Origin: an uncultured Pseudomonadota bacterium
GTDB taxonomy: Bacteria > Myxococcota_A > UBA796 > SXON01
NCBI GenBank assembly: GCA_903891165.1
Contig: CAITDR010000674.1
Span: forward strand, 1 to 47,952
DNA: 47,952 nt
Reading direction: 5' to 3'
A program made the translations under genes and the position numbers. Below, in pieces: positions 32,119-45,590 of the stretch (position 1 is its first letter; each line of letters opens with the position of its first letter). Below the pieces are notes generated by a model, which was not told where the DNA came from, did no database searches, and saw only the letters and a list, made by a program, of their open reading frames with translations.

Positions 32119-35100
32119 CTACACCGCCTCAGAGTCCTTTTTGGGACTGTCTTCCTCAAAAACAGACCTGCTGACCTCGCTGGTGTCGGCGTCCTGGGGC
32201 ACCACTTCGCTGGTGTCCTGGGTGTCGGCGTCGCTGGTGTCCAGACTGTCCGCGATCCCACTGCCATCGATGCTGTCGGTACCAACCAGGCCGCTGTTCC
32301 AGCTGCCCTCGGCGACGGTGGCGGGCACATCGTCGAAGACGGCATCCACCACCCCATCCTCGTGGGTGGGCAGGTAGCTGACATCGGCAGAGGTGGGATC
32401 CGGCGGGGTCTCGCTGTACTCCGGCGGGCTCGCGGCTGCCGCCAGCTCTGCTCCCAGACCTGCCAGCAGGCCATCTGCAGAGGAAGAACCGTTCTTCTTT
32501 GGATCCTCCGACTCCAGGTAGCAACACTTCTTGAACTTCTGACCACTGCCACAGGGACAGGGATCGTTGCGACGGATGTTGTACTCCATCGCAAAAAGAC
32601 GTGCTTCCGCGCCCTTGGCAGGCTGGCGGGGGGGCGGCGGCGCGGTAAAGACGATGGGCTCAGGGTTGCGTACCGGGGGAGGCGCGGGAGACTCCTGCTC
32701 CTCCAGCGCGGCCGCCTCCAGCTCACGCGCGAGCTGGCCCGAGGCCATCCGCTGGGCCATGGCCTTGCTGGCGCCACCACCCGCCGCTTCCGCCACCTGG
32801 GGCTGGAGACGCAGGAGGTTTTTCATGACCGCTTCGTCGCGAAGCGAAGACATCAACATATACATGTTGTAGGCTTCCTTCTTGTACTCCAAGAGCGGGT
32901 TTCGCTGGCCATAGCCGCGAAGTCCGATGCCGTCCCGGAGCCGGTCGATGGCGAGGAGGTGGTCCTTCCAGAACTGATCGGCGTAGAACAGCAACATCTG
33001 CCGTTCGATGTTCCGCATCAGGTCTGTGCCGACCTCGGCTTCCTTGGCTACATAGCCAGCGGCTGCCTCTTTTTCGAGGCGCTCTTGCAACTCGACGCGG
33101 GCGTACTCGCGCAGGGCCTCCGGGCTCTCCTCCCACTTGAGGGCAAAAATCTCTTCGATCCGGCGGAGGAAGGAGGTGGTGTCCCACAGATCTGCGGCGG
33201 CACTTGCGGGGATAAACTCGTCCATCAAGTCGTCGCAGAGGTGACGAATGGACTCCAACATCATCTCCCGTGCATTTTCGCCCTGCAGCGCGTGACGACG
33301 CAGCTCGTAGACCGCTTTCCGCTGGAGGTTCATGACATCGTCATATTCCAGCAGGTTTTTCCGCATGTTGAAGTGGTGGCCTTCCACCCGGCGCTGCGCC
33401 TCTTCGATGGAGCGGGTGACCCAGCGGTGTTCGATGGGCTCCTCGTCTTTCATGCCCGCCATCTGCATAAAACCGCGCATGCGGTCGTTGGCAAAGAGGC
33501 GCATCAGGTCGTCTTCCAGGGAGAGGAAGAAGCGGGAAAGCCCAGGATCTCCCTGACGACCGGCACGGCCGCGAAGCTGGTTGTCGATACGACGACTTTC
33601 GTGCCGCTCGGTACCAAGGATGAACAGCCCCCCGCAGGCGACAACATCCTCGCGCTCACGCTCGACCTGTACCCGGTATTTCTCGACTGCCGACTTCCAC
33701 ATCTCCGGAGAGGCACCGCTGCCCACTTCGAGGCGCGCCAGACCTTCGGGGTCGCCGCCGAGCTTGATGTCGGTGCCACGACCGGCCATATTCGTGGAGA
33801 TGGTCACCGAGCCCTTGCGACCGGCCTGCGCGACGATCTCCGCCTCGCGGGCATGGTTTTTGGCGTTCAGGATTTCGTAGGGAATCCCCTTCCGCTGGAG
33901 CATACGCTCCACGATCTCGGATTTTTCCACCGAGGTGGTGCCGACCAGGACCGGCTGGCCGCGCTGGTGGGCCTCCTCGATCTCCTTCATCACGCGCTGG
34001 AATTTCCCCGCTTGTGAGAAGTAGACTACATCTTCCATGTCCTTGCGGATCATGTTGCGGTTGGTGGGGATGGGCACCACCTCCAGCTTGTAGATATTTC
34101 CGAATTCCTCGGCTTCCGTCTCGGCAGTTCCGGTCATACCCGCGAGTTTGCCGTACATGCGGAAGAAGTTCTGGAAGGTAACGGTGGCGTAGGTCTGGGT
34201 CTCCGCCTCCACGTTCACGCGCTCCTTGGCTTCGATGGCCTGATGCAGACCATCGGACCAGCGACGACCCGGCATCAAACGCCCGGTATGCTCGTCTACG
34301 ATCACCACCTTGCCCTGCTGGACAACGTAGTCTTTGTCGCGACGGAAGAGGAAGTGGGCCTTGAGCGCCTGGCTGACGTGGTGCAACAGCTCCATATGCG
34401 TGGGATCGTAGAGATTCTCTACCCCAAGCTGGGCTTCTACCTTATCCACACCTTCATCGGTCAGGCTGACCGCGCGCTGCTCTTCGTCAACCGTGAAGTC
34501 CACCTCCTTCTGCAGGAGGGGAATGATCTTGTCGATCTCGCCGTAGCGCGAAACATCTTCCGACGCAGGACCGGAGATGATCAAGGGAGTACGTGACTCA
34601 TCGATGAGGATGGAGTCCACTTCGTCCACAATCGCGAAGTGGTGGCCACGCTGCACATACTCTTCGATCCGGAACTTCATGTTGTCCCGGAGGTAGTCGA
34701 AGCCAAATTCGTTATTGGTGCCGTAGGTGATGTCCGAGGCATAAGCATCACGCTTGATTCGCTCATTACGCTCATTGGACAAAATGGTGCCCGAGCTCAG
34801 ACCCAAAAAGCGGTAGAGGCGACCCATCCACTCGGCGTCGCGGGCAGCGAGGTAGTCGTTCACGGTGACGACGTGGACCCCTTTTCCGACCAGCGCGTTG
34901 AGGTAGACCGGGCAGGTGGCCACCAAGGTCTTGCCTTCGCCGGTCTTCATCTCGGCAACCATGCCACGATGAAGCACCATTCCGCCGATCATCTGCACGT
35001 CGTAGTGACGCATATCCAGCACGCGCCGGGAGGCTTCGCGGACCACCGCAAAGGCATCCGGAAGCAGGTCGTCCAGCGGCATGCCGTTTGCGATCTTCTG

Positions 35101-35259
35101 CTGGAATTCGGGAGTACATGCCTTCAGCTGTTCGTCACTGAGCGCTTTGTACTTGCCTTCCAGGTCATTGATCTGAACGACGACTGGTCGCATTCTCTTA
35201 ATGAGGCGGTCCGCAGATGTGCCGAACACGCGCTTGATGACTGTATCGAGACCCAGCAT
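32119..35259 (-). CDS. secA: preprotein translocase ATPase SecA with long acidic C-terminal extension
   Basis: SecA drives protein export through SecYEG. The 1046-residue protein has the P-loop TGEGKT at residues 106-111, an IVDEVDS Walker B, the preprotein-crosslinking domain, and the QLRGRAGRQGDPG motif VI. A SEC-C zinc motif (CPCGSGQKFKKCC) lies near residue 900. In most SecA proteins this is almost the end; here about 130 more residues follow, rich in Asp, Ser, Thr and Glu, with no recognisable fold. I start at ATG 35259 (MLGLDTVIKRVFG), preceded by AAGGACGG. Gene order with the M23 peptidase upstream is loose (56 bp). Confidence 0.97.
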   Translation of the reverse strand: MLGLDTVIKRVFGTSADRLIKRMRPVVVQINDLEGKYKALSDEQLKACTPEFQQKIANGMPLDDLLPDAFAVVREASRRVLDMRHYDVQMIGGMVLHRGMVAEMKTGEGKTLVATCPVYLNALVGKGVHVVTVNDYLAARDAEWMGRLYRFLGLSSGTILSNERNERIKRDAYASDITYGTNNEFGFDYLRDNMKFRIEEYVQRGHHFAIVDEVDSILIDESRTPLIISGPASEDVSRYGEIDKIIPLLQKEVDFTVDEEQRAVSLTDEGVDKVEAQLGVENLYDPTHMELLHHVSQALKAHFLFRRDKDYVVQQGKVVIVDEHTGRLMPGRRWSDGLHQAIEAKERVNVEAETQTYATVTFQNFFRMYGKLAGMTGTAETEAEEFGNIYKLEVVPIPTNRNMIRKDMEDVVYFSQAGKFQRVMKEIEEAHQRGQPVLVGTTSVEKSEIVERMLQRKGIPYEILNAKNHAREAEIVAQAGRKGSVTISTNMAGRGTDIKLGGDPEGLARLEVGSGASPEMWKSAVEKYRVQVEREREDVVACGGLFILGTERHESRRIDNQLRGRAGRQGDPGLSRFFLSLEDDLMRLFANDRMRGFMQMAGMKDEEPIEHRWVTRSIEEAQRRVEGHHFNMRKNLLEYDDVMNLQRKAVYELRRHALQGENAREMMLESIRHLCDDLMDEFIPASAAADLWDTTSFLRRIEEIFALKWEESPEALREYARVELQERLEKEAAAGYVAKEAEVGTDLMRNIERQMLLFYADQFWKDHLLAIDRLRDGIGLRGYGQRNPLLEYKKEAYNMYMLMSSLRDEAVMKNLLRLQPQVAEAAGGGASKAMAQRMASGQLARELEAAALEEQESPAPPPVRNPEPIVFTAPPPPRQPAKGAEARLFAMEYNIRRNDPCPCGSGQKFKKCCYLESEDPKKNGSSSADGLLAGLGAELAAAASPPEYSETPPDPTSADVSYLPTHEDGVVDAVFDDVPATVAEGSWNSGLVGTDSIDGSGIADSLDTSDADTQDTSEVVPQDADTSEVSRSVFEEDSPKKDSEAV

Positions 35260-35315
35260 CGTCCGTCCTTGGTATCGGTGGGGTGCCACCGGAAGCGGCG
35301 GTTAACCTGTGTACG

Positions 35316-36212
35316 TCAGGGGAGGTAGTCAAGAGGGTCTACACGTTCTCCATCAACGATCAATTCATAGTGCAGGTGCGGCCCGGTGCTGAGCCCGGTG
35401 TTCCCCACCAGGGCCAGTACCTGACCCTCCTCCACCCGTTCCCCCTCTTCCACCAGCAGCACCGATGCGTGGCAATAGCGGGAGAGCACCCCGCCCCCGT
35501 GGTCGAGCACCACCATCTGTCCGTGACCGCTGTCCCAGCCGGAAAAGAGTACTTTCCCCCGGTTGGTGGCCAGGATCGGCTCCCCTATCGGCGCGCCAAT
35601 ATCGACGCCCCCGTGCAGCGTCCAGTCCCCGGTAAAAGGGGAGGCCCTCCAACCGAATCCGGAGGTGACAATGCCCTCCACCGGCCAGATACCCGGCAGC
35701 ACCGACTGCTGCGCATGCAGGGCATCCAGGGCCTGATCGATGTAGGCGCCGTCCACCGTCGTGATGGCATCCTCCAACAGACCCACCTCGTCCATCATAA
35801 AAAGAGCGTCATCCGTGATAGTTTTCCCCGGCGTCCGGTCCAAACGGGCCTGTTGCTCCTCCGGACTCAGCGGCCCCATCCCTGGCAGGGCGCCCGCAGC
35901 CTCCAGTTCGCGAAGGCGCTGCTCCCAGGCCTGGATCTTCCGGGTGCTGTCGCGCAGTTCCTCCAAGCGCTGGCGCGTCTCCACCACCTGCTCGCGCAGC
36001 AGGTTGTTCTCCGTCTGGACGCGTCGCATCTGTAGTGCCTTCGGAAAGGACCACAGGGTCGCCGAAAGACTAAGGAGGAGGAGGAAGATGGAGGAAAGAC
36101 CAATCGCCAAAAGGCCTCGAATCCTCCCCTGAGCCATACTCAGCTGGCGCACCTCGCCCCGGCCACCCTCGGGCACCAGGAGCAGGGTCCAGCGTCGGGA
36201 CTCAGACTTCAT
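35316..36212 (-). CDS. M23 (LytM) metallopeptidase with membrane anchor and coiled coil
   Basis: A 298-residue envelope protein for peptidoglycan cleavage or for activating amidases. A transmembrane segment at 33-55 is followed by a coiled coil at about 58-106 and a C-terminal LytM domain: SGFGWRASP, HGGVDIGAP (zinc ligands His200 and Asp204), GHGQMVVLDHG and GPHLHYE (third ligand His). All three zinc ligands are present, so activity is likely. Its start overlaps the PP2C stop by 11 bp; it ends 56 bp before secA. Confidence 0.92.
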   Translation of the reverse strand: MKSESRRWTLLLVPEGGRGEVRQLSMAQGRIRGLLAIGLSSIFLLLLSLSATLWSFPKALQMRRVQTENNLLREQVVETRQRLEELRDSTRKIQAWEQRLRELEAAGALPGMGPLSPEEQQARLDRTPGKTITDDALFMMDEVGLLEDAITTVDGAYIDQALDALHAQQSVLPGIWPVEGIVTSGFGWRASPFTGDWTLHGGVDIGAPIGEPILATNRGKVLFSGWDSGHGQMVVLDHGGGVLSRYCHASVLLVEEGERVEEGQVLALVGNTGLSTGPHLHYELIVDGERVDPLDYLP

Positions 36213-36960
36213 CCACCCGGGCGATCACGCAGGTGATGTTGTCGTCCCCACCGCGATCACAGGCCTGCTGGATCAGGGCGCGCGCCGCCTCCTGGGGGGA
36301 GAGCGACCGGGCGGATTCGCCCATGTCGGCGGGCTCGACCAGGTTGGAGAGGCCATCGGAGCAGAGGAGGAAGCGGTCGCCGCGTCGCACCGCGCGCACC
36401 TGCACGTCTATCTCCACATCCTCGGTGTAGCCCAGGGAACGTGTGATGATATTTTTGTGCTTGTGGTTACGGGCCTGCTCCGGGGTCAACAGGCCGGCAC
36501 GGATTTTTTCGTTTACCAAGGAGTGATCTTCGGTGAGCTGCTCGATCCGGCCATCGCGGATCAGGTAGCCTCGGCTGTCGCCGACGTGGCCGATAAAGGC
36601 ATTCCCACCGTCCACCATCAGCACCAAGCAGGTGGTGCCCATTCCCTTATATTCCTGCTCCACCAAGGCTTTTTCGAAGATGCGCTTGCCCGCCAGACGA
36701 ATGGCATAGCGCAGGCGCTCGCGGGAGACTTCAATGCTCCCCTCTTCGCGGGCGGCTTCAATCTCCGGGGTGGTGTCGGAGGAGGACAGCACTTCCTCCA
36801 CCGTGTTCACCGCGATCGCGCTGGCAAACTCACCACCGGCATGCCCCCCCATACCATCACACACGACGAAGAGGTTCAACTCGTCGTTGATCAGGAAGTT
36901 ATCCTCGTTGTTGGTCCTTTTGACCCCAACATCGGTCATCCCGCAGGAGGTGATGCGCAT
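36202..36960 (-). CDS. PP2C-type serine/threonine protein phosphatase
   Basis: A 252-residue Stp/PrpC-like phosphatase. The metal and phosphate sites are RTNNEDNF (Arg15, Asp20), VCDGMGGHAGG (Asp35), HVGDSRGYL, LLCSDGLSNL and GGDDNITCV. All metal ligands are present. Such enzymes reverse Hanks-type kinase signalling, although no kinase lies in this window. It is coupled to the M23 peptidase gene by an 11-bp overlap and is divergent from the LuxR gene. Confidence 0.95.
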   Translation of the reverse strand: MRITSCGMTDVGVKRTNNEDNFLINDELNLFVVCDGMGGHAGGEFASAIAVNTVEEVLSSSDTTPEIEAAREEGSIEVSRERLRYAIRLAGKRIFEKALVEQEYKGMGTTCLVLMVDGGNAFIGHVGDSRGYLIRDGRIEQLTEDHSLVNEKIRAGLLTPEQARNHKHKNIITRSLGYTEDVEIDVQVRAVRRGDRFLLCSDGLSNLVEPADMGESARSLSPQEAARALIQQACDRGGDDNITCVIARVDEV

Positions 36961-37034
36961 GCCGTCTTCCTCAGCCGCAAATGGGCTTCTGGCCGCTTAG
37001 CCTGTCTGGGCGGGCACTGCACCCCTGGCGCAGA

Positions 37035-37073
37035 AGGTTCCCGCTGCCCGGGGGGCGGGAGGCGCGGGAACCT
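37035..37073. repeat. 10-bp inverted repeat between PP2C and LuxR genes
   Basis: AGGTTCCCGC (37035-37044) and GCGGGAACCT (37064-37073) are fully complementary with a 19-base G-rich loop. It lies about 135-173 bp upstream of the LuxR start point predicted from the sigma-54-type motif. It may be an activator site, an operator or a transcript hairpin. The rest of the 249-bp gap shows nothing else clear apart from the promoter match. Confidence 0.55.
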
Positions 37074-37181
37074 GTGGGATTTCGCACGGCGAGCCCGTAG
37101 GCGGAGGGGCATTTGCCACAGGTCTACGGCAGGATCCACGGTTAAAGGTACACTCCTCGGCAGCCTGACCGACCCCCGAGT

Positions 37182-37197
37182 TGGCACGGATCCTGCT
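37182..37197 (+). promoter_or_regulatory. sigma-54-like promoter before the LuxR gene
   Basis: TGGCAC-GGATC-CTGCT matches the RpoN consensus with one mismatch in the -12 box (C for T) and correct 12-bp GG to GC spacing. The predicted start point (about 37208) is only two bases before the ATG at 37210, so the mRNA would be leaderless. Confidence 0.5.
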
Positions 37198-37209
37198 TGA
37201 GACCTGGCC

Positions 37210-37707
37210 ATGTCTGCATCCATCCTTTTGACCGATGCCCAAGGGCGACTGAAAGCCGCCAATGAGGCGGCCCGGGAGCTGCTTGGCCTGCCGGAGAACC
37301 TCCAGGGCCTGCATTGTCGGCTTGCGGTCCATGCAAAAGACGAAAGTGGAAGATCTCCCTGTGATCTCTGCCAGCACGACTCCCTGGGGGCCAGCGAGCA
37401 GCGGGAACACAGCAACCTGCAGGTGAACGGTCAGTCGGTAGAGATGATCTGCTCGGGAATGGGCGATCAGCGGGTGATCACCCTGCTTTCTCTGGACTCT
37501 CCGCCCGAGGGGGCGAACCTGAGCCCGCGGGAACGTGAGGTCCTGGTGCTGGTGGCGCGCGGACTGACCACCGCAAAAATCGCCGACCGGCTGGGTCTGG
37601 GCTATCCCACCGTCCGCACTCACATGGAACACATCCGCGAGAAACTGGGCGTTCGAACGCGTGCTCAGGCGGTCGCACGCGCACTGGCGTTACGACTGAT
37701 CGAGTAG
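37210..37707 (+). CDS. PAS-like sensor fused to LuxR-type DNA-binding domain
   Basis: A 165-residue regulator. Residues 1-92 resemble a PAS domain (SILLTDAQGRLKAANEAARE, LLGLPENL) and contain four cysteines: Cys36, Cys51-x2-Cys54 and Cys81. The rest is a LuxR/FixJ-type helix-turn-helix (LSPREREVLVLVARGLTTAK, TVRTHMEHIREKLGVRTR) at 104-165. No receiver domain with the phospho-accepting Asp is present. The cysteine pattern suggests metal, heme or redox sensing, which is an inference. Its target is unknown. It has a sigma-54-like promoter 13 bp upstream, and its 3' end overlaps the convergent rsmA by 43 bp. Confidence 0.85.
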   Translation: MSASILLTDAQGRLKAANEAARELLGLPENLQGLHCRLAVHAKDESGRSPCDLCQHDSLGASEQREHSNLQVNGQSVEMICSGMGDQRVITLLSLDSPPEGANLSPREREVLVLVARGLTTAKIADRLGLGYPTVRTHMEHIREKLGVRTRAQAVARALALRLIE

Positions 37708-38480
37708 AAGGCTCCGGCCAGACGTCGGAAGTCCGCGAGGCTCAGCACCTCGGCCCGCAGACCGGGGTCGATGGCTGCCTGCTGAAGAAGGGTCGCGGCT
37801 TCTTCACGGCTCATCCCCGAAGAAAGCGCATTCAGAAGTGTCTTCCGGCGTTTGGAGTAGGCCAGCCGGACAATGTGATCAAAGCTGTCCCCGGTAGCCC
37901 CCCCGAAGTCGGGCTCCGCGATCAGCTCGAAGTGCAATACGGTGGAGTCCACCTTCGGAGGAGGCCGAAAGGCGCCTGGACCCAAGGTGATTACCCGCTG
38001 TACCCGCGCACGCGCCTGCACCTGGATGGACAGAGAGCCCACCGCGTCATCGTCGGGTGCGGCGAGGATACGATCGGCAACCTCTTTCTGGAACATCAGG
38101 ACCATCTTGCTGAAATGCTGAGGGTAGTCCAGAAGCCGCAGCAGAATGGGCACCGCCACGTTGTAGGGCAGGTTCGCAACCACCTTCCAACCCCTTCCAG
38201 GACAGACGGCGTCAAAATCCACCTTCATCGCGTCGGCCTGCACCAGCTTGAGGTCGGGCCAACGCTCCTGCAACAGTGCGGCCATGTCGCGGTCCAGCTC
38301 GATCACCAGCAGATCGGTGCGAGACACCCGGAGGGAGGAGGTCAGCGCCCCCGGTCCCGGACCGATCTCGAGAACCCGGTCTCCCTCGTGCAGCTCGGCC
38401 GCCCGAAGAATACGGTCGATCGCGTCGGTGGAAATCAAAAAATTCTGGCCAAAGCGCTTTTTTGCGTGGGGAAGGCTCAA
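37665..38480 (-). CDS. rsmA: 16S rRNA dimethyladenosine transferase
   Basis: RsmA (KsgA) dimethylates two adjacent adenosines in helix 45 of 16S rRNA. The 271-residue protein starts with KKRFGQNFLIS and has VLEIGPGPGALT for the S-adenosylmethionine site, VQADAMKVDF, the NLPYNVAVPILLR catalytic motif and FRPPPKVDSTVL. The start is TTG 38480, overlapping the tsaD stop as TTGA. The last 13 codons run into the convergent LuxR gene (43 bp overlap). Confidence 0.96.
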   Translation of the reverse strand: MSLPHAKKRFGQNFLISTDAIDRILRAAELHEGDRVLEIGPGPGALTSSLRVSRTDLLVIELDRDMAALLQERWPDLKLVQADAMKVDFDAVCPGRGWKVVANLPYNVAVPILLRLLDYPQHFSKMVLMFQKEVADRILAAPDDDAVGSLSIQVQARARVQRVITLGPGAFRPPPKVDSTVLHFELIAEPDFGGATGDSFDHIVRLAYSKRRKTLLNALSSGMSREEAATLLQQAAIDPGLRAEVLSLADFRRLAGAFYSISRNASARATA

Positions 38481-39448
38481 ACCGGCTCTCCTACTGGCCA
38501 GCGGGGCCGGGCGGTGGTGCTGAGGGGATCATTGCGGCCACGCTGCGCATAGAGTCGTCCAACCAGCGCAATCATGGCAGCGTTGTCCGTGCAGTGGTGA
38601 CGAGGGGGGAGGAAGGCCTGGAGGCCACAGGAGGAGACGGCATGGCGAAGACCGGCATTGGCGGCCACACCTCCGCCGATGCTCACCCGCTCCACCCCCG
38701 TGAGGCGGGCGGCGCGGTGAAGACGATCCACCAGTACCTCCACCACGGCGGCCTGAAAAGAGGCGGCCATATCCTCCGGCCGGGTCTCCGGGTGTTTTTG
38801 GAGCCAGGTCCGAACCGCAGTTTTCAATCCTGCAAAGCTCATATCCATCTCGCCCGCTTTGGGGCGGGGAAGGGGCACCGAGCGTGGATCCCCTTGCGAC
38901 GCCAACCGGTCGATCACGGGGCCGCCGGGATAGCCCAGCCCCATCATACGCGCGACCTTATCAAAAGCTTCACCGGCCGCATCATCTACCGTTTCTGCAA
39001 GGGTCTGGTAGCGGCCCACGTCCTGGGCAAGATAGAGGGTCGTGTGCCCACCACTTACAACGAGTGACAAAAAAGGAAAATACAGATCAGGGTGATCCAG
39101 GAGCGGGGAGAGCAGGTGGCCCTCCAGGTGATTCACAGCAATAAAGGGCACCTTCCAGCCTAACGCCGCTGCCTTGCCAAAGCAGAGGCCCACAAGTACA
39201 GCACCCACAAGGCCCGGCCCGGCAGTCGCCGCCACCACATCGGGCCGCTCGATCCCGGCCGAATCCAGCGCGGCGCGCACCACCGGCACCACCTGCTCGG
39301 CATGGGCACGACTGGCCAATTCGGGAACGACGCCGCCGTAGGCTGCGTGAACCTGCTGCCCATGTACGATGTCCGCGAGAATGCCCTGCCCGGACACCAC
39401 GGCCGCCGCGGTCTCGTCGCAGGAGGACTCGATGCCCAGCACCCTCAT
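38477..39448 (-). CDS. tsaD: tRNA threonylcarbamoyladenosine transferase TsaD
   Basis: TsaD transfers the threonylcarbamoyl group to A37 of tRNAs. The 323-residue protein starts MRVLGIESSCDETAAAVV and has the HxxxH metal motif NHLEGH, SGGHTTLYLA and DDAAGEAFDKVARMMGLGYPGG. The start overlaps the previous stop as ATGA (39445-39448). The gene is in the run of seven coupled genes with the Gld-type ABC proteins and rsmA, while tsaB is 13 kb away. Confidence 0.97.
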   Translation of the reverse strand: MRVLGIESSCDETAAAVVSGQGILADIVHGQQVHAAYGGVVPELASRAHAEQVVPVVRAALDSAGIERPDVVAATAGPGLVGAVLVGLCFGKAAALGWKVPFIAVNHLEGHLLSPLLDHPDLYFPFLSLVVSGGHTTLYLAQDVGRYQTLAETVDDAAGEAFDKVARMMGLGYPGGPVIDRLASQGDPRSVPLPRPKAGEMDMSFAGLKTAVRTWLQKHPETRPEDMAASFQAAVVEVLVDRLHRAARLTGVERVSIGGGVAANAGLRHAVSSCGLQAFLPPRHHCTDNAAMIALVGRLYAQRGRNDPLSTTARPRWPVGEPV

Positions 39449-40995
39449 GGTTTGACCACCGGCGGGGCCGGGTTGGTGGACGGCGCTTCCAGATGGGGAG
39501 ATGTGTGGGAGACACGCACCAAATATTGGACAGGGTCAAAGCGACCTTCGTCCTTCACACCATCGTGACACTGGGTGCAGACGGCCATCTCCGGCTTCGC
39601 CACCATGTCCACCGACGCGGGGGTGGCCACATGATCCCGGCCAGGACCATGACAGCTTTCACAGCCCACATTTTCCAGACCACCCACAACGCCAGGGCTG
39701 TGCGGCCCGTCGGGGTGGAAGGCGCCGGTGACGTGGCAGCTATAGCAGGCTTCGTCTTTCTGGCGGTTCTGGGCACCCAGGGACGCGTAGGCGCGTGCAT
39801 GCGGCGTTGTGGACCACTGGGAGGCCTGGGCGGCGTGGCAGGGCAGGCAGGCGGCACTGCCCACGAAGGGACCGGTGCCCAGGGCGGTGGGCTTCACGAT
39901 GCCCACCAGCGCCGAAATCTCCTCCTTGGCACGGGCCACCAAGGCTGCAGTGGCAGGATGATCGGCGACATCGGTGCCCAGCTCCACAAAGCGATTTTCG
40001 ACGGAGCGGGATGCCCCCCCCGCCGTGGCCGCCCCGAGCTGCTTCTCCAGCTCGATCACCTGCTTTTTGTAGTATTCAATACGGGTTTTGAGGCGGGCCT
40101 GCTCTTTCGGATCTTCGGATTTGGCGAGTTTCTCCTCAGCTTCTTTGATCCGCTGGCTGGTGGCATCCTTGCGGCGGGCCAGCTCGCCCAGAGCCCCGGC
40201 ATCCCGCCAGTCGTGGCCAGTACCGATGCTGTCGAAGCTGAGCATACCCACCTTCTTGCCACGGCTGCCCCCGGCCAGAAGTAGCCCACCCGTAGACAGC
40301 GGCTCCGGGATCAGATTTTCCCGGCGTTCACCGCCGTTGACGATGAAGTCCAGGTCGGGCAGTTTCTCCGCAACGCGCTGGTCGTCCGCCATCTGCTGGG
40401 TAGAAAGGAGAATGCGGATGTCCACGGTACCGAGTTTTGCAAAAGCCGCTTCCGCCGCCGCAATGGGCTCCGACGCGAGGCAGCCCTGCACCTTGGCGCT
40501 GTTGCCGACGAGCCCCACAATTCCGATGCGGAGGCCGCCCCGCTCCACAACTTTGCCCGCCTCAAAGGGATGTTCTCCGCCACAGTCCAGGTTTGCGGCC
40601 ACATAGGGCAGGTTGTGCTGCTTCTGGAGCGCCTGGAGCCAGGGCAGGCCGAAGGCCAGCTCCCCATCCCCCACCCCCATGGCGTCAATTCCAACCAATG
40701 CGTAAGACTCCGCGATTAAAGTAGCTTTTCGTTCTTCTTGCCCACGATCCGACTCGGACAGGATCGCCCCCTTCCAGAGCGCGTTTCCTGCGTCCACCAC
40801 GACCACGGGGGCCTTCGCCCGCTCGGTCTCCAACACCGTATTTCGTCTGGACAGACCGCCCAGGGGATGTTTGGGTCAGCCACAGGGCTCGATTTCACCG
40901 TCCACATTTGTGGTATAGGCGAGGATAATCTTGGAAGAAGGAGGAGCGACATTCTCCCCCGTACATGCCAACATCCCGACGAGCCACAGCGGCAT
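39445..40995 (-). CDS. UshA-like tetraheme cytochrome c lipoprotein, predicted selenoprotein (Sec40 at TGA 40876-40878)
   Basis: Read through one in-frame TGA, this is a 516-residue exported protein. It starts at ATG 40995, overlapping the DUF4340 stop as TGATG. A short lipoprotein signal (MPLWLVGMLAC, Cys11) leads into GEIEPCG-TGA-PKHPLGGLSRR; relatives of this 5'-nucleotidase-like (UshA) family, as I recall them, have EPCGC there, so the TGA replaces a cysteine. Metal-binding positions look degenerate, suggesting redox rather than phosphatase work. A coiled coil (about 268-323) precedes four CxxCH heme motifs (383-387, 417-421, 445-449, 473-477). Heme c attachment needs export, and the only signal is upstream of the TGA. 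A SECIS-like hairpin follows the TGA. If the TGA is a true stop, a TTG-started 463-residue fragment without signal would remain. Confidence 0.85.
40847..40878 (-). promoter_or_regulatory. bacterial SECIS-like element for selenocysteine insertion
   Basis: On the minus strand the TGA (40878-40876) is followed by 18 bases and then GGTCT. The stem CTGGGC (40863-40858) and GTCCAG (40852-40847) closes the GGTCT loop (40857-40853) with six pairs, one of them G-U. The loop sequence and its 18-nt distance from the TGA equal those of E. coli fdhF as remembered. A SelB-binding role is inferred from this. Confidence 0.8.
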
Positions 40996-42515
40996 CACTG
41001 CCCTCCAGAGGAGCCCAGCTCCTGGTTGATCTTCTCGCGCCGACCTGCTTTTTCGGCATCCTCGTCGGCTTTGCGACGGTGTTCCCGCATCAGGTCCTTC
41101 ACCACCTCTATCAGGCTGGCGTCGATGACGTAGACCTCGGGAAACTCGGCCACGCGCGCATAGTAGCGGTCGTAGCTCTCTTCTGCGGGGTTGCCGGGCT
41201 GCCCCGGGGGCGGGGGCACCATCCGCTTGCCAGCGGGGGCGGGTTTGCCCACCATAAGGTTCCGGTACGCGCCAGCGGAATCGCGAACGTAGATTTTCAC
41301 CAGTGGACGATCAAAGCCGTACTTTGCGTCTTCCGCGGCGTCAGCGACAAACTCTTCAGATTCTACACCGCAGGCACGGCCCGCGAGGCGGCGGGGCGTG
41401 GAGCCGGGCACGGGCACCCCATCATCCCAGAGCCACTGGTCGGCGGCCATGGTCACTTTTACGGTGCCGTTCAGATCCGCGTCCCGACCGGTGGTGTCGA
41501 AAGTAGCGCTGATCTCCTGCACAGTGTTCTCGTCCATCCGTGCAAAGCGGGTGAGGCGGAAGTGTGCTGGCGGCTGGCCATAGTCTTCCAAGAGGCCATC
41601 GCGAACCGCATAGACATGGGGTTCGTCGGCCAGCTTGGCATAGGCCAGCGGATATTCGCCGTCTTTTTCGCCCGTGGGCTTGCCCAGAAGCAGGGTCATC
41701 GGGGCATCGCCGTTGGAGTAGCGGATGCTGATGGTCGCACGGGGCTGATCCAGTCCATAGGGAGAGAGATCCTGAAGGTTTTCGCCCACAAACTGGATGG
41801 CCTTCATCGCAGAGACCCGCCCCAAGAGCGAACGGATCTCGGAGTCGTTGGCCGCAAAAGTCTCCGGCTCCAGCATATCCCAGGAAGTTTCTCCATTGCG
41901 CTGGAACTTCAGGCGTTTCCCCTCGGGAAGCGTGGCATCCAGTTGATCCACGTCCTTGGCGTCAAAGGTGGCAAAACGCCGCTCTCGGAACTCAGCCAGG
42001 GATAAAGAGTAATAGTCCACCGCGCTCTTTTTAACGGTAAACACTGAGTCAGTGCCGACGGGGCGGATGTAAAAACTGACGCCCGAGGGGTTCGGATCCC
42101 CCGCGTCAAAGGACAGCGTGGACCCATCGCGGAAGCTCAGGGTCACACGAATCGCTTGGGCACCCAGCCCATAGAGGGCGTCCTGCCCCACATCTTCCAC
42201 AACTGTAGCCCGCGCTACAAGATCGTGGAGCTGATGCTTGACCCGGTTCACCATTGAGCGACTCGCGCGGAGATTCTCTCCCTCGATCCACCAGCCATCG
42301 TCGCGTTCGGCCAGGACAATCTGCCCCTCGGGGCGCTTGACCTCCACCTTCACCAGATTGGCCTTCTCAAATTGAAAAAGGGCGCGTCCTTCTTCTTTTT
42401 TCTTGTCTTTTTTGGCCACCGGCACCGCCTGCTCAGGCGGGCGGGTGTAGTACCAGGCCCCCAGCATCGCCAGGAGCACCAGGAGCGCAACCAGAGTTCC
42501 ACGGAACGCCTTCAT
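40995..42515 (-). CDS. DUF4340-domain membrane-anchored protein
   Basis: A 506-residue protein with one N-terminal transmembrane segment (residues 5-24) and a large extracytoplasmic part made of beta-rich repeats of the DUF4340 type (DGWWIEGENLRASRSMVNRV and a later PLVKIYVRDS segment). DUF4340 proteins are commonly next to GldG-like genes, as here, and probably form a complex with them. The start is ATG 42515, overlapping the GldG-like stop as ATGA; an upstream in-frame start at 42536 exists but is inside that gene. Its stop overlaps the selenoprotein start. Confidence 0.88.
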   Translation of the reverse strand: MKAFRGTLVALLVLLAMLGAWYYTRPPEQAVPVAKKDKKKEEGRALFQFEKANLVKVEVKRPEGQIVLAERDDGWWIEGENLRASRSMVNRVKHQLHDLVARATVVEDVGQDALYGLGAQAIRVTLSFRDGSTLSFDAGDPNPSGVSFYIRPVGTDSVFTVKKSAVDYYSLSLAEFRERRFATFDAKDVDQLDATLPEGKRLKFQRNGETSWDMLEPETFAANDSEIRSLLGRVSAMKAIQFVGENLQDLSPYGLDQPRATISIRYSNGDAPMTLLLGKPTGEKDGEYPLAYAKLADEPHVYAVRDGLLEDYGQPPAHFRLTRFARMDENTVQEISATFDTTGRDADLNGTVKVTMAADQWLWDDGVPVPGSTPRRLAGRACGVESEEFVADAAEDAKYGFDRPLVKIYVRDSAGAYRNLMVGKPAPAGKRMVPPPPGQPGNPAEESYDRYYARVAEFPEVYVIDASLIEVVKDLMREHRRKADEDAEKAGRREKINQELGSSGGQ

Positions 42516-43966
42516 CGACCCCTCCGGGAAGACCATACCGCCGCGCCGACCATCATGGCCAACAGCGGCCCCAAGCCGATCACCACCCAGCGAAGCTGCC
42601 CGAGATCCTCTTCGGTCAGGGCCAGTTTTCGCACCGCAGAGGGGCGTCCGGACACCGAAAGGCGCCCATCATCCCCCACCAGCCAGCGCAGCGCATTGAC
42701 GCCAAAAGAGAGGTTGCCCGGGCCTTCGGTGAGAAGGCTGTTGGAGAGCATGTCGCTGTCCCCCAGCACAATCACCCGACCCTGGCCCCGGTTCACCAAA
42801 CCGGAGTCCCGCCCCAGCTCCAGCGTCAACGCCATGGTCGCCGGACCCGCTGCATCGATCTCAGGTTGGAAGAGGGCATTTCCGCCCTTCAGCTCCCCTC
42901 CCCGCTCGATCCAGCCGTCCCGTGAGGTTTCCAACAGCGTCGCACTGCGAATGCCCTCGCGCGGGGGAACTGCGGCCTGCAACGGCGCCACCCCCGACAC
43001 CAGGGTCACCAGCGTCTCGCTGGCCAAGGCCTCGGTGATGGGATGGTTGCGATAGCGCGGCACCGGCCGATCGGGGAAGGGAAAGACCAGCAATTTGTCG
43101 AGCACCATCCCCTCGGGGACGGCCACACCAAAGCGGCCAAAAATCTCAGGGATCACACCCCCGGGATCGACTGCAAAAAGCAGGGGCCCCCCGGCGGACA
43201 GGTAGGCCAGCAAAAGCTCCTGCTCCAAGGCTGGAATCTGCACACGCGGCCGCACCACGATCACGGCCGCCGCATCCTCCGGCACTTGGGGAACCCCTCC
43301 CTTCGCATCACGAACCAGATCCAGACGCTTCAGCTCATAGTGCTCTTGATCCAGGGCTTTCCCCAGATCAGAGAGTCCATCGGGCTCACGACTCTCGGGG
43401 TTCATCTCCCCGTGGCCCACAAGGGCATAGACCACCCGCGTATTGTTGGCCATGAGTTGAGAAAAAGCGCGATTCACCGACGCTTCCCCCAAAAACTCCA
43501 TCGCCCGATCGGCGCCCTTGCCCACGTGCCGGAACAGGTCCCGATCCTTCAGGTCCACCCGCTGCTCGCCCCGCTGGATCACCACGGTGCCATACTCGGT
43601 GACCCCCAGGTTCTCCGCAGTCAATCGCTCGCGATCAAAGTCTACAAACTCGGCCTCCACTACCGAAGACGCGTAGTCGATCTCCTCGACCAGATCCTGG
43701 AGCTGCCGGTTCTTGAAGTAGGCTTCCTTCTTTCCCTCCTGGGCCGAGAAGGCAGTGATCTTGACCGGGATCGCATCTTTTTCCAGAATGCGCAGCTTGT
43801 TCTGGGTGTCCTCCATCAGCCGGGAGGACTGGGTGGCCGAGAAGTCCACACGGATGCGGAAAGGCTCCAGAAGCACATAGCCAAAGACGACGATGAGCAC
43901 CATGATCACCGCTACCAGAGCGGCATTCGAGCCGGTCGCAAGGCGCCGTTGCAGGTTCCGGTTCAT
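42512..43966 (-). CDS. GldG-like ABC-system auxiliary protein
   Basis: A 484-residue protein with transmembrane segments at both ends: one at about 16-36 and one near 460-480, with a large extracytoplasmic domain between. The pattern (DFSATQSSRLMEDTQNKLR, VVYALVGHGEM, PRVQIPALEQELLLAYLSAG, GGPLLFAVDP) matches the GldG/ABC-type uncharacterized transport family. The start is ATG 43966, overlapping the GldF-like stop as ATGA; a longer frame goes back to 44119 within that gene. With GldF and GldA it makes the usual three-protein module. In Bacteroidetes the module serves gliding; here its job is unknown. Confidence 0.9.
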   Translation of the reverse strand: MNRNLQRRLATGSNAALVAVIMVLIVVFGYVLLEPFRIRVDFSATQSSRLMEDTQNKLRILEKDAIPVKITAFSAQEGKKEAYFKNRQLQDLVEEIDYASSVVEAEFVDFDRERLTAENLGVTEYGTVVIQRGEQRVDLKDRDLFRHVGKGADRAMEFLGEASVNRAFSQLMANNTRVVYALVGHGEMNPESREPDGLSDLGKALDQEHYELKRLDLVRDAKGGVPQVPEDAAAVIVVRPRVQIPALEQELLLAYLSAGGPLLFAVDPGGVIPEIFGRFGVAVPEGMVLDKLLVFPFPDRPVPRYRNHPITEALASETLVTLVSGVAPLQAAVPPREGIRSATLLETSRDGWIERGGELKGGNALFQPEIDAAGPATMALTLELGRDSGLVNRGQGRVIVLGDSDMLSNSLLTEGPGNLSFGVNALRWLVGDDGRLSVSGRPSAVRKLALTEEDLGQLRWVVIGLGPLLAMMVGAAVWSSRRGR

Positions 43967-44673
43967 CGCCACCTCCGCGATTCCAGCGAGCGGAAGGTCA
44001 GGAAGAGAAAGACAGCCGTAAAGGCTACAAAATAGTAGATGTCCATGCTGTCGAGGACCCCCCGGTTGAAGGAGTCCAGATGGTAGAGCAGCGACAGCGG
44101 CCGGACCCTGTCCGCCCACTCGTCGGGCACCAGCGCCTCGGCGCGACCGACCAGCCAGAAGGGCACCAGGATGACCGCGCCGATCAGGCCCGCCGCCATC
44201 TGATCATCCAACAGGGAGGACGAAAATAGCCCCGCCGCACAAAAAGCGCAGGCGACGGCAAACAGCCCCAGGTAGGAGGTGAGCATCACCCCCCAGTCGG
44301 GATCCCCGTAGTAGGCCAACACCGCCGGAAAAACCAGGGTGCCCGCGAACATAATCGCACAGAGGGTCACCGAAGCAGCCCACTTGCCCACCACGATGGC
44401 CCACAGCGGGATCGGTGCCGTCAAGAGCATCTCCAGCGTGCCCTGGCGACGCTCCTCGGCGAAGTGACGCATGGTAAGCATGGGTAGCACGAAGATCTGG
44501 GTGATCGCCAGGTTTCCAGCAAGTACGCGCAGCGAGGCCTCGCCGGTGAGCGTCACCCCCAGGTAGAAGAAGAGCCCGGCGATCAGCAGGTAGGCCGCCA
44601 GAAAAACGTAGGCGATGGGGCTGACGAAGTAGCTGCGCAGCTCCTTCTTCCACATCGTGAAGACAAATTTCAT
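43963..44673 (-). CDS. ABC-2 permease, GldF-like
   Basis: A 236-residue integral membrane protein with six transmembrane segments. The segments KELRSYFVSPIAYVFLAAYL at the N-terminus, MLTMRHFAEERRQGTLEMLL (the ABC-2 EERRxGTLE motif) and SLLYHLDSFNRGVLDSMD near the end are family hallmarks. It forms the channel with the ATPase at 44670-45590. Both ends overlap neighbours (ATGA at 44670-44673 and 43963-43966). Confidence 0.93.
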   Translation of the reverse strand: MKFVFTMWKKELRSYFVSPIAYVFLAAYLLIAGLFFYLGVTLTGEASLRVLAGNLAITQIFVLPMLTMRHFAEERRQGTLEMLLTAPIPLWAIVVGKWAASVTLCAIMFAGTLVFPAVLAYYGDPDWGVMLTSYLGLFAVACAFCAAGLFSSSLLDDQMAAGLIGAVILVPFWLVGRAEALVPDEWADRVRPLSLLYHLDSFNRGVLDSMDIYYFVAFTAVFLFLTFRSLESRRWR

Positions 44674-45590
44674 CCCTCCCTCCCCACGATCCCGATAAAG
44701 GCTTCTTCGAGGCTGGGAAGGCGCTGCTCCAGCGCACGCACCCGCCAGCCCTTGGCCGCCGCTGCCCGGAAGAGCAGCTCGCGCGGGTCGGCAGGCGCAC
44801 GTACACGGAGCTTCGCAAAATCCCCGTCTATGCCCAAAGGTTCAACCATCTGAACCCCCGCCAAGGCCCCCACTTCCCTATCCTGGGCCCCGGCCACTTC
44901 CAGGTAGTACCAGACCCCACCCGGCGCCTGCTCCCGCAGCTCGGCGATGGTTCCACTTGCGCGAAGTTTTCCGCCCGCAATCAGCATTGCACGCGGGCAA
45001 ATGGCCTCCACCTCCCCCAGAATGTGGGTGGACAGGATCACCGTGCGGGTGGCCGCCAGCTCGCGCATCAGCTCCCGCATCCCCATCACCTGCGTCGGAT
45101 CGAGGCCGGACGTAGGCTCGTCCAGGATCAGCACCTCAGGCTCGTGCACCAGGGCCTGTGCCAGTCCCACCCGCTGCCGGTAGCCCTTGGAGAGCGACCC
45201 CAGGACCCGCCCCTCCCAGCCCACCAGACCCACCTGCTCCATCACCCGACCCACCCGCTTCAGGCGCTCTTTCCCGTAGAAACCACGTAGTTCAGCAGCG
45301 AACTCCAGGTAGGTACCGACGGTAAGCTCCGGGTAGAGCGGAGGGGACTCCGGCAGATAGCCCACCCTGCGCTTCACCTGCATCGGCTCGTCAAAAACGT
45401 CGAAGCCCGCCACTTTAACGTCGCCCCCCGTTGCGGGGAGAAAGCCGGTGAGGATGCGCATGGTGGTCGTCTTTCCGGCACCGTTGGGGCCCAGAAAACC
45501 GACAACCTCACCTTTCCCGATGGAAAAGCTGACATCATCCACCGCAAGGCGGGGACCGTAGGACTTGGTCAGGTGCTGTACGTCGATCAT
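44670..45590 (-). CDS. ABC transporter ATPase, GldA-like
   Basis: A 306-residue ATP-binding protein. Walker A is GPNGAGKTTT (34-43), the signature motif is the LSKGYRQRVGLAQ segment near residue 135, and Walker B is LILDEPTSGLDP near residue 155, followed by the TRTVILSTHILGEVE switch-histidine segment. A C-terminal 80-residue domain is typical of GldA/CcmA-type ATPases. It is the first gene of the seven-gene coupled run toward rsmA and is divergent from the SurA-N-like gene. Confidence 0.95.
   Translation of the reverse strand: MIDVQHLTKSYGPRLAVDDVSFSIGKGEVVGFLGPNGAGKTTTMRILTGFLPATGGDVKVAGFDVFDEPMQVKRRVGYLPESPPLYPELTVGTYLEFAAELRGFYGKERLKRVGRVMEQVGLVGWEGRVLGSLSKGYRQRVGLAQALVHEPEVLILDEPTSGLDPTQVMGMRELMRELAATRTVILSTHILGEVEAICPRAMLIAGGKLRASGTIAELREQAPGGVWYYLEVAGAQDREVGALAGVQMVEPLGIDGDFAKLRVRAPADPRELLFRAAAAKGWRVRALEQRLPSLEEAFIGIVGREG

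Follow-up and report, generated by a model that had tools for sequence, protein, structure and literature searches.

The window considered here is a stretch of 47,952 nucleotides, contig CAITDR010000674.1 of assembly GCA_903891165.1, from an uncultured bacterium. On its minus strand it carries a gene for a UshA-like tetraheme protein of 516 residues that is interrupted by an in-frame UGA at codon 40. Comparison of sequences makes it close to certain that this UGA would be decoded as selenocysteine (Sec), which is counted here as residue 40. That decoding was proposed in an earlier note on this DNA, and it is supported by the alternation of Sec and Cys in related proteins, by Sec genes in the source genome, by conservation of the frame upstream of the UGA and by the fit of a recoding hairpin. 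The gene is a sound new member of an already named selenoprotein family and not a new kind. Its features are as follows.

39445..40995, minus strand: UshA-like tetraheme selenoprotein gene, from its frame and a match to NF041198, with the final TGA (39447-39445) included.
40963..40995, minus strand: residues 1-11, predicted to be a lipoprotein signal whose lipobox GMLAC ends in Cys11, from sequence and a Cys invariant in 21/21 alignment rows.
40876..40878, minus strand: in-frame TGA at codon 40, the predicted Sec codon (Cys-Gly-Sec).
40847..40863, minus strand: predicted bacterial selenocysteine insertion sequence (bSECIS) hairpin, stem CUGGGC/GUCCAG, apical loop GGUCU (40857-40853).
39901..40938, minus strand: 5'-nucleotidase/UshA-type metallophosphatase fold, residues 20-365, with the metal and catalytic residues replaced.
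39565..39849, minus strand: tetraheme region of the cytochrome c554 type with four CxxCH (PF13435, 1e-12; PF14522, 1.8e-7).

The frame starts at ATG 40995, overlapping the TGA of the preceding gene (TGATG, 40997-40993), and reads MPLWLVGMLACTG..., then EPCG, the TGA and PKHPLGGLSRR. The coupling, the start, the lipoprotein signal and the EPCG-TGA at codon 40 had all been described in the earlier note and were found again on re-reading. Its PKHPLGGLSRR was also correct, but its count of 460 more codons was slightly low; 476 codons follow the internal TGA to the end of the frame. The four heme motifs that it placed at the frame end are at C383, C417, C445 and C473. As it foresaw, standard open reading frame calling yields only 39445..40836, a product of 463 amino acids from a GTG start at 40836, and protein database entry P0002 is exactly this truncated form. 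An 86% identical protein, P0003, is likewise cut after the TGA codon. Standard annotation thus hides the gene: 118 of the 120 listed homologues begin past the codon or have no such motif, so that databases miss both the export signal and the Sec. The upstream frame, whose conservation had been put forward as a check, keeps its lipobox Cys in 21/21 aligned sequences.

The exchange of Sec with Cys was followed through a survey of 377 genomes of the phylum, in which matches were listed down to about E 5e-63, genomes outside the class were judged on the listed rows, and the listed non-TGA rows were seen by eye to be all marked as same phylum. Among the matches listed, 50 rows have one TGA: 22/22 genomes in the family of the source genome (itself included), 20/41 in the rest of the order and 8/8 in the rest of the class. 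Re-examination of the remaining 21 genomes of the order added 10 with a TGA row, bringing the class to 60 of 71 genomes. The motif was read in 58 of the 60 TGA rows (those of G299 and G307 lie outside this set) and is PCG-U in 57 and PTG-U in one. Each of the 50 distinct full TGA loci has its TGA at this one codon, which speaks against chance. In the distinct fetched non-TGA loci outside the class, the motif is PCG-C in 21/21, comprising 18 found by motif pattern plus L080, L083 and L087, which the pattern missed and which were read separately. Cys also occupies the aligned codon in proteins P0087 and P0104. Within the class, five paralogues with Cys read PCGCPTLPYGG or PCGCPTVPYGG, so the Cys that the earlier note gave for codon 40 of homologues is indeed there. 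A restriction of the Cys forms to genomes outside the class is ruled out by these in-class paralogues. One of them is in the source genome, on contig C114 (L131:796-2427, minus strand); it reads EPCGCPTVPYGG, has 544 amino acids and four CxxCH, and scores 199 bits, below the cut-off. Sec and Cys forms coexist in the source genome.

One alignment comprised 81 sequences, the window protein plus 80 drawn from the 120 listed homologues; L026, which contains N, was left out of another alignment. In a FastTree phylogeny of 78 proteins (53 Sec, 25 Cys), with the root chosen on L044/L047, all Sec proteins fall in one clade of 55 leaves with support 0.68. The other two leaves of that clade are the Cys proteins P0087 and P0104, which sit with 11 Sec proteins in a 13-leaf clade (0.989). 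Such a tree would fit a single gain of Sec followed by a single reversion to Cys, likely represented by P0087 and P0104, but its root is weak and so is the node with support 0.68.

The predicted hairpin has a stem of 6 bp and a spacing of 18 nucleotides from UGA to loop. As a 36-nucleotide fold it has -8.8 kcal/mol and a z of -1.21; longer folds alter the lower part, and one loses the hairpin. The limits given in the available passages of PMC13188914 for bSECIS elements are a G among the first two loop nucleotides, a loop of 3-9 nucleotides, a stem of 4-16 bp, a spacing of 16-37 nucleotides and a minimum free energy (MFE) of at most -7.5. The window hairpin lies within them on all points, and the bSECIS check suggested earlier therefore comes out in favor of recoding. 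Codons +6 to +11, which are nucleotides 16-33 past the UGA, are frozen across 50 Sec genes. GGC is kept in 49/49. GGT is kept in 49/50 vs a background of 0.12; the binomial of 3e-44 for this assumes independent rows, an assumption that does not hold. The count for CTG is 42/50 and that for TCC 32/32 of the Ser codons, and AGG (23/49 vs 0.04) and CGA (14/48 vs 0.06) are frozen as well. The 18 Cys genes have no comparable codon peak.

The source genome is a draft, 84% complete, and the machinery for Sec that the earlier note proposed to look for (selA, selB, selC, selD) was found in it as follows. A tRNA-Sec is present on contig C201 (55.3 bits; found also by ARAGORN, with anticodon tca), and selA scores 466.6 bits, over the cut-off. 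The selD function would fall to a 715-residue oxidoreductase-SelD fusion (L016:1075-3222, minus strand) at 221.7 bits vs the selD cut-off of 125. Its naming as SelD is not fully certain because it also scores 411.6 bits (cut-off 700) to the model "oxidoreductase/SelD-related fusion protein" (fusion_not_SelD). The fusion partner is a pyridine-nucleotide oxidoreductase. The selB gene is represented by two pieces at contig edges, of 50 amino acids (C266) and 513 amino acids (C374), presumably from one gene; the larger has the SelB wing and beta-barrel domains and scores 178 bits, below the full-length cut-off of 242. Over the genomes compared, selA occurs in 38/40 with the TGA form vs 16/40 with the Cys form (36 and 15 over the cut-off; Fisher 1.3e-7).

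Membership in the NCBIfam family NF041198, UshA-like (seleno)protein, rests on a full-length match over the curated cut-off (321 bits vs 275, model positions 7-514 of 519). This is the family with PCGU, the COG0737 UshA-like CxU protein of the GOS survey. The window gene has the CxU motif after the first strand, as EPCG-TGA, with PCG-C in relatives; its tetraheme C-terminus falls inside the model span, and no feature sets it apart from the family. The second family, NF049981, has a related N-terminal domain and gives a weak match of 37.3 bits, far under its cut-off of 140; its model of 262 positions has no heme part, whereas the window gene has a heme region. In the passages available from each source, NF049981 is listed with CxxU and NF041198 with CxU (PMC13188914), "COG0737, UshA-like, CxU" stands among the GOS selenoproteins (PMC2398784), and UshA-like, CxU is listed again in PMC9312934. 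The main text of PMC12013277 contains none of UshA, COG0737, cytochrome or Myxococc. Neither the available passages of the family papers nor literature searches gave anything on hemes, ligand loss or an operon for the UshA-like family, and those passages have no heme-free relatives of it. Searches on selenoproteins with Myxococcota or with multiheme cytochromes returned only unrelated papers. A homologue search with residues 22-72 gave no match, and a related-locus search in genome contigs confirmed no relative.

A structure model has a 5'-nucleotidase-type fold for residues 20-365. Taking D41, H43, D84, N116, H217, H252 and residue 254 as the metal and catalytic sites of UshA, the window protein keeps 0/7. 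A reading as a phosphatase, which the fold would suit, is rejected on the strength of these residues. The protein differs from the 5'-nucleotidases E. coli UshA, CD73 and Thermus 2z1a in lacking their metal and catalytic residues, and their C-terminal substrate domain is replaced by the tetraheme region. Among 70 aligned proteins, the N116 equivalent is never Asn, while C38 and the Sec/Cys position are invariant in 70/70. The heme region is like cytochrome c554 of Nitrosomonas (PF13435; 1bvb, 6.4e-9). The likeness is in the C-terminal part only, and the score to NF043010 is 43.6 bits (cut-off 400).

The neighboring genes are all on the same strand.

40995..42536, minus strand: DUF4340 protein, overlapping the selenoprotein start by TGATG (PF14238, 2e-52).
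42512..44119, minus strand: GldG-like auxiliary protein of an ATP-binding cassette (ABC) system (PF09822, 3.3e-14; TIGR03521, 3.9e-9, below cut-off).
43963..44673, minus strand: GldF-like ABC permease (TIGR03518, 9.8e-46, below cut-off).
44670..45590, minus strand: GldA-like ABC ATPase (TIGR03522, 7.1e-90, below cut-off).
38477..39448, minus strand: tsaD, the next gene downstream (PF00814, 5.3e-88).

The Gld-like genes at 42512-45590, which adjoin the DUF4340 gene, are all below the curated gliding-motility cut-offs, and literature searches on DUF4340 with an ABC transporter found no paper. The adjacency to a Gld-type ABC operon that had been noticed in the window recurs in most of 40 Sec loci. 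Counting same-strand genes within 6 kb, DUF4340 is present in 28, GldF-like and GldG-like genes in 27 each, GldA-like in 26 and TsaD in 29, although the contigs of some relatives end too early for such counting. None of 17 Cys loci has DUF4340, Gld-like or TsaD neighbors. The class-level loci L048-L052 have tsaD and not the Gld genes.

We consider it probable, though well short of assured, that the Sec is a redox centre linked to the hemes and the ABC complex. Directed by the hairpin, SelB and tRNA-Sec would place Sec at the UGA. The product would be exported, lipid-anchored at Cys11 and loaded with four c-type hemes. Residues 20-365 would no longer be hydrolytic and would present the Sec from the loop formerly holding the first metal ligands, with C138-C172 as a putative structural disulfide. 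In the cell envelope, the Cys-Gly-Sec pair may then donate electrons to the four-heme cytochrome domain or accept them from it, probably in the service of the GldA-GldF-GldG-DUF4340 complex encoded alongside. A wider history is offered only tentatively: class-wide, a dead 5'-nucleotidase fold may have become a selenium redox device for this ABC complex, with Cys changing to Sec once and four hemes as the usual wire, and with one branch shedding the hemes, and in one instance the partner Cys, while keeping the Sec, the hairpin and the place in the operon. If true, a redox partner that depends on selenium would be seen for the first time with a Gld-type ABC machine. The gene offers a clean example of Sec/Cys exchange, with evidence for the recoding signal at the level of codons. 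It makes testable the question of what use a Gld-type ABC operon has for a selenium centre built on a phosphatase fold free of metal, and why the hemes can go while the Sec remains.

Several observations weigh against parts of this account. Draft genomes without a TGA row make up 11 of the 71 in the class, and 2 of the 40 TGA genomes, also drafts, have no selA. The hairpin is no stabler than synonymous recodings in the Sec genes (mean z +0.61, 0/49 below -1, one of the 50 genes being left out for an N), while the same test on 18 Cys genes gave a mean z of -0.53 with 6 below -1. RNAalifold, applied in one register, found no covarying pair. With neither an MFE excess nor covariation seen, what is frozen is the sequence itself, mainly that of the loop and the stretches beside it. 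One Sec relative retains 5/7 phosphatase residues, and model confidence at the site of the Sec is low (pLDDT 64 over residues 31-40, 76 over 41-50). Of the 40 Sec loci, which had enough flank or lay on short contigs, 7 are without any of the four operon genes. Finally, three Sec relatives (in G198, G034 and G203, with frames of 398, 371 and 339 codons) have no CxxCH past the UGA, and so the heme partnership is not general. Two of these, L136 (G198) and L138 (G034), occupy the equivalent position next to GldA-GldF-GldG-DUF4340, and L138 in addition precedes tsaD. From the UGA on, their NF041198 scores are 139.2 and 113.7 bits, under the cut-off. L136, L137 and L138 all keep GGC-GGT-CTG (the GGCGGTCTG hairpin), and in L138 Cys38 is replaced by Thr (PTG-U). 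Judged by these loci, the Sec can persist where the hemes, and even Cys38, have gone. We therefore take the Sec as the functional core and the hemes as a losable wire, since three relatives keep the UGA without hemes, one of them also without Cys38.

It is rather unlikely that the role of the Sec/Cys pair is metal binding or heme ligation instead of thiol-type redox chemistry. By alignment, the pair does sit in the loop that bears the first metal ligands in 5'-nucleotidases, and its invariance in the 70 aligned proteins would suit a ligand. However, the Thr of L138 and the three heme-free loci argue against this, and Sec and Cys exchange in the set used here as they do in the redox families of the available passages of PMC2398784. 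Less probable still, judged on the residues and on the SoxB model score, is a domain that is still hydrolytic, or that cleaves S-S bonds as SoxB does, using Sec as its nucleophile; none of the seven residues is left for it, the N116 equivalent is never Asn, and the match to the SoxB thiosulfohydrolase model TIGR04486 is 36.3 bits against a cut-off of 550. The thiol-type redox centre is preferred over both.

We rejected an ordinary stop, a sequencing error and an alternative code. The TGA as a real stop with a start at GTG 40836, as a sequencing error or as a mark of a decaying gene is highly improbable. The called frame and its identical database entry are what such a stop would give, but the TGA recurs at one codon in 50 loci with Cys there in 21/21 non-TGA loci. 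Moreover, the export signal lies only in the part that a stop would sever, the codons beyond the TGA are frozen, and the 86% identical P0003 is cut past this codon as well. An ordinary amino acid under another genetic code would explain the single open frame across the TGA and has practically no chance, given that this gene and the preceding one both end at TGA, that each relative has a single TGA, always at the Cys site, and that tRNA-Sec, selA and selB pieces are present.

Past tsaD, on the same strand of the window (32119-35289 and 35316-38480), are secA, an M23 peptidase, a PP2C phosphatase and a KsgA-type methyltransferase, the last two of which are also found in relatives.
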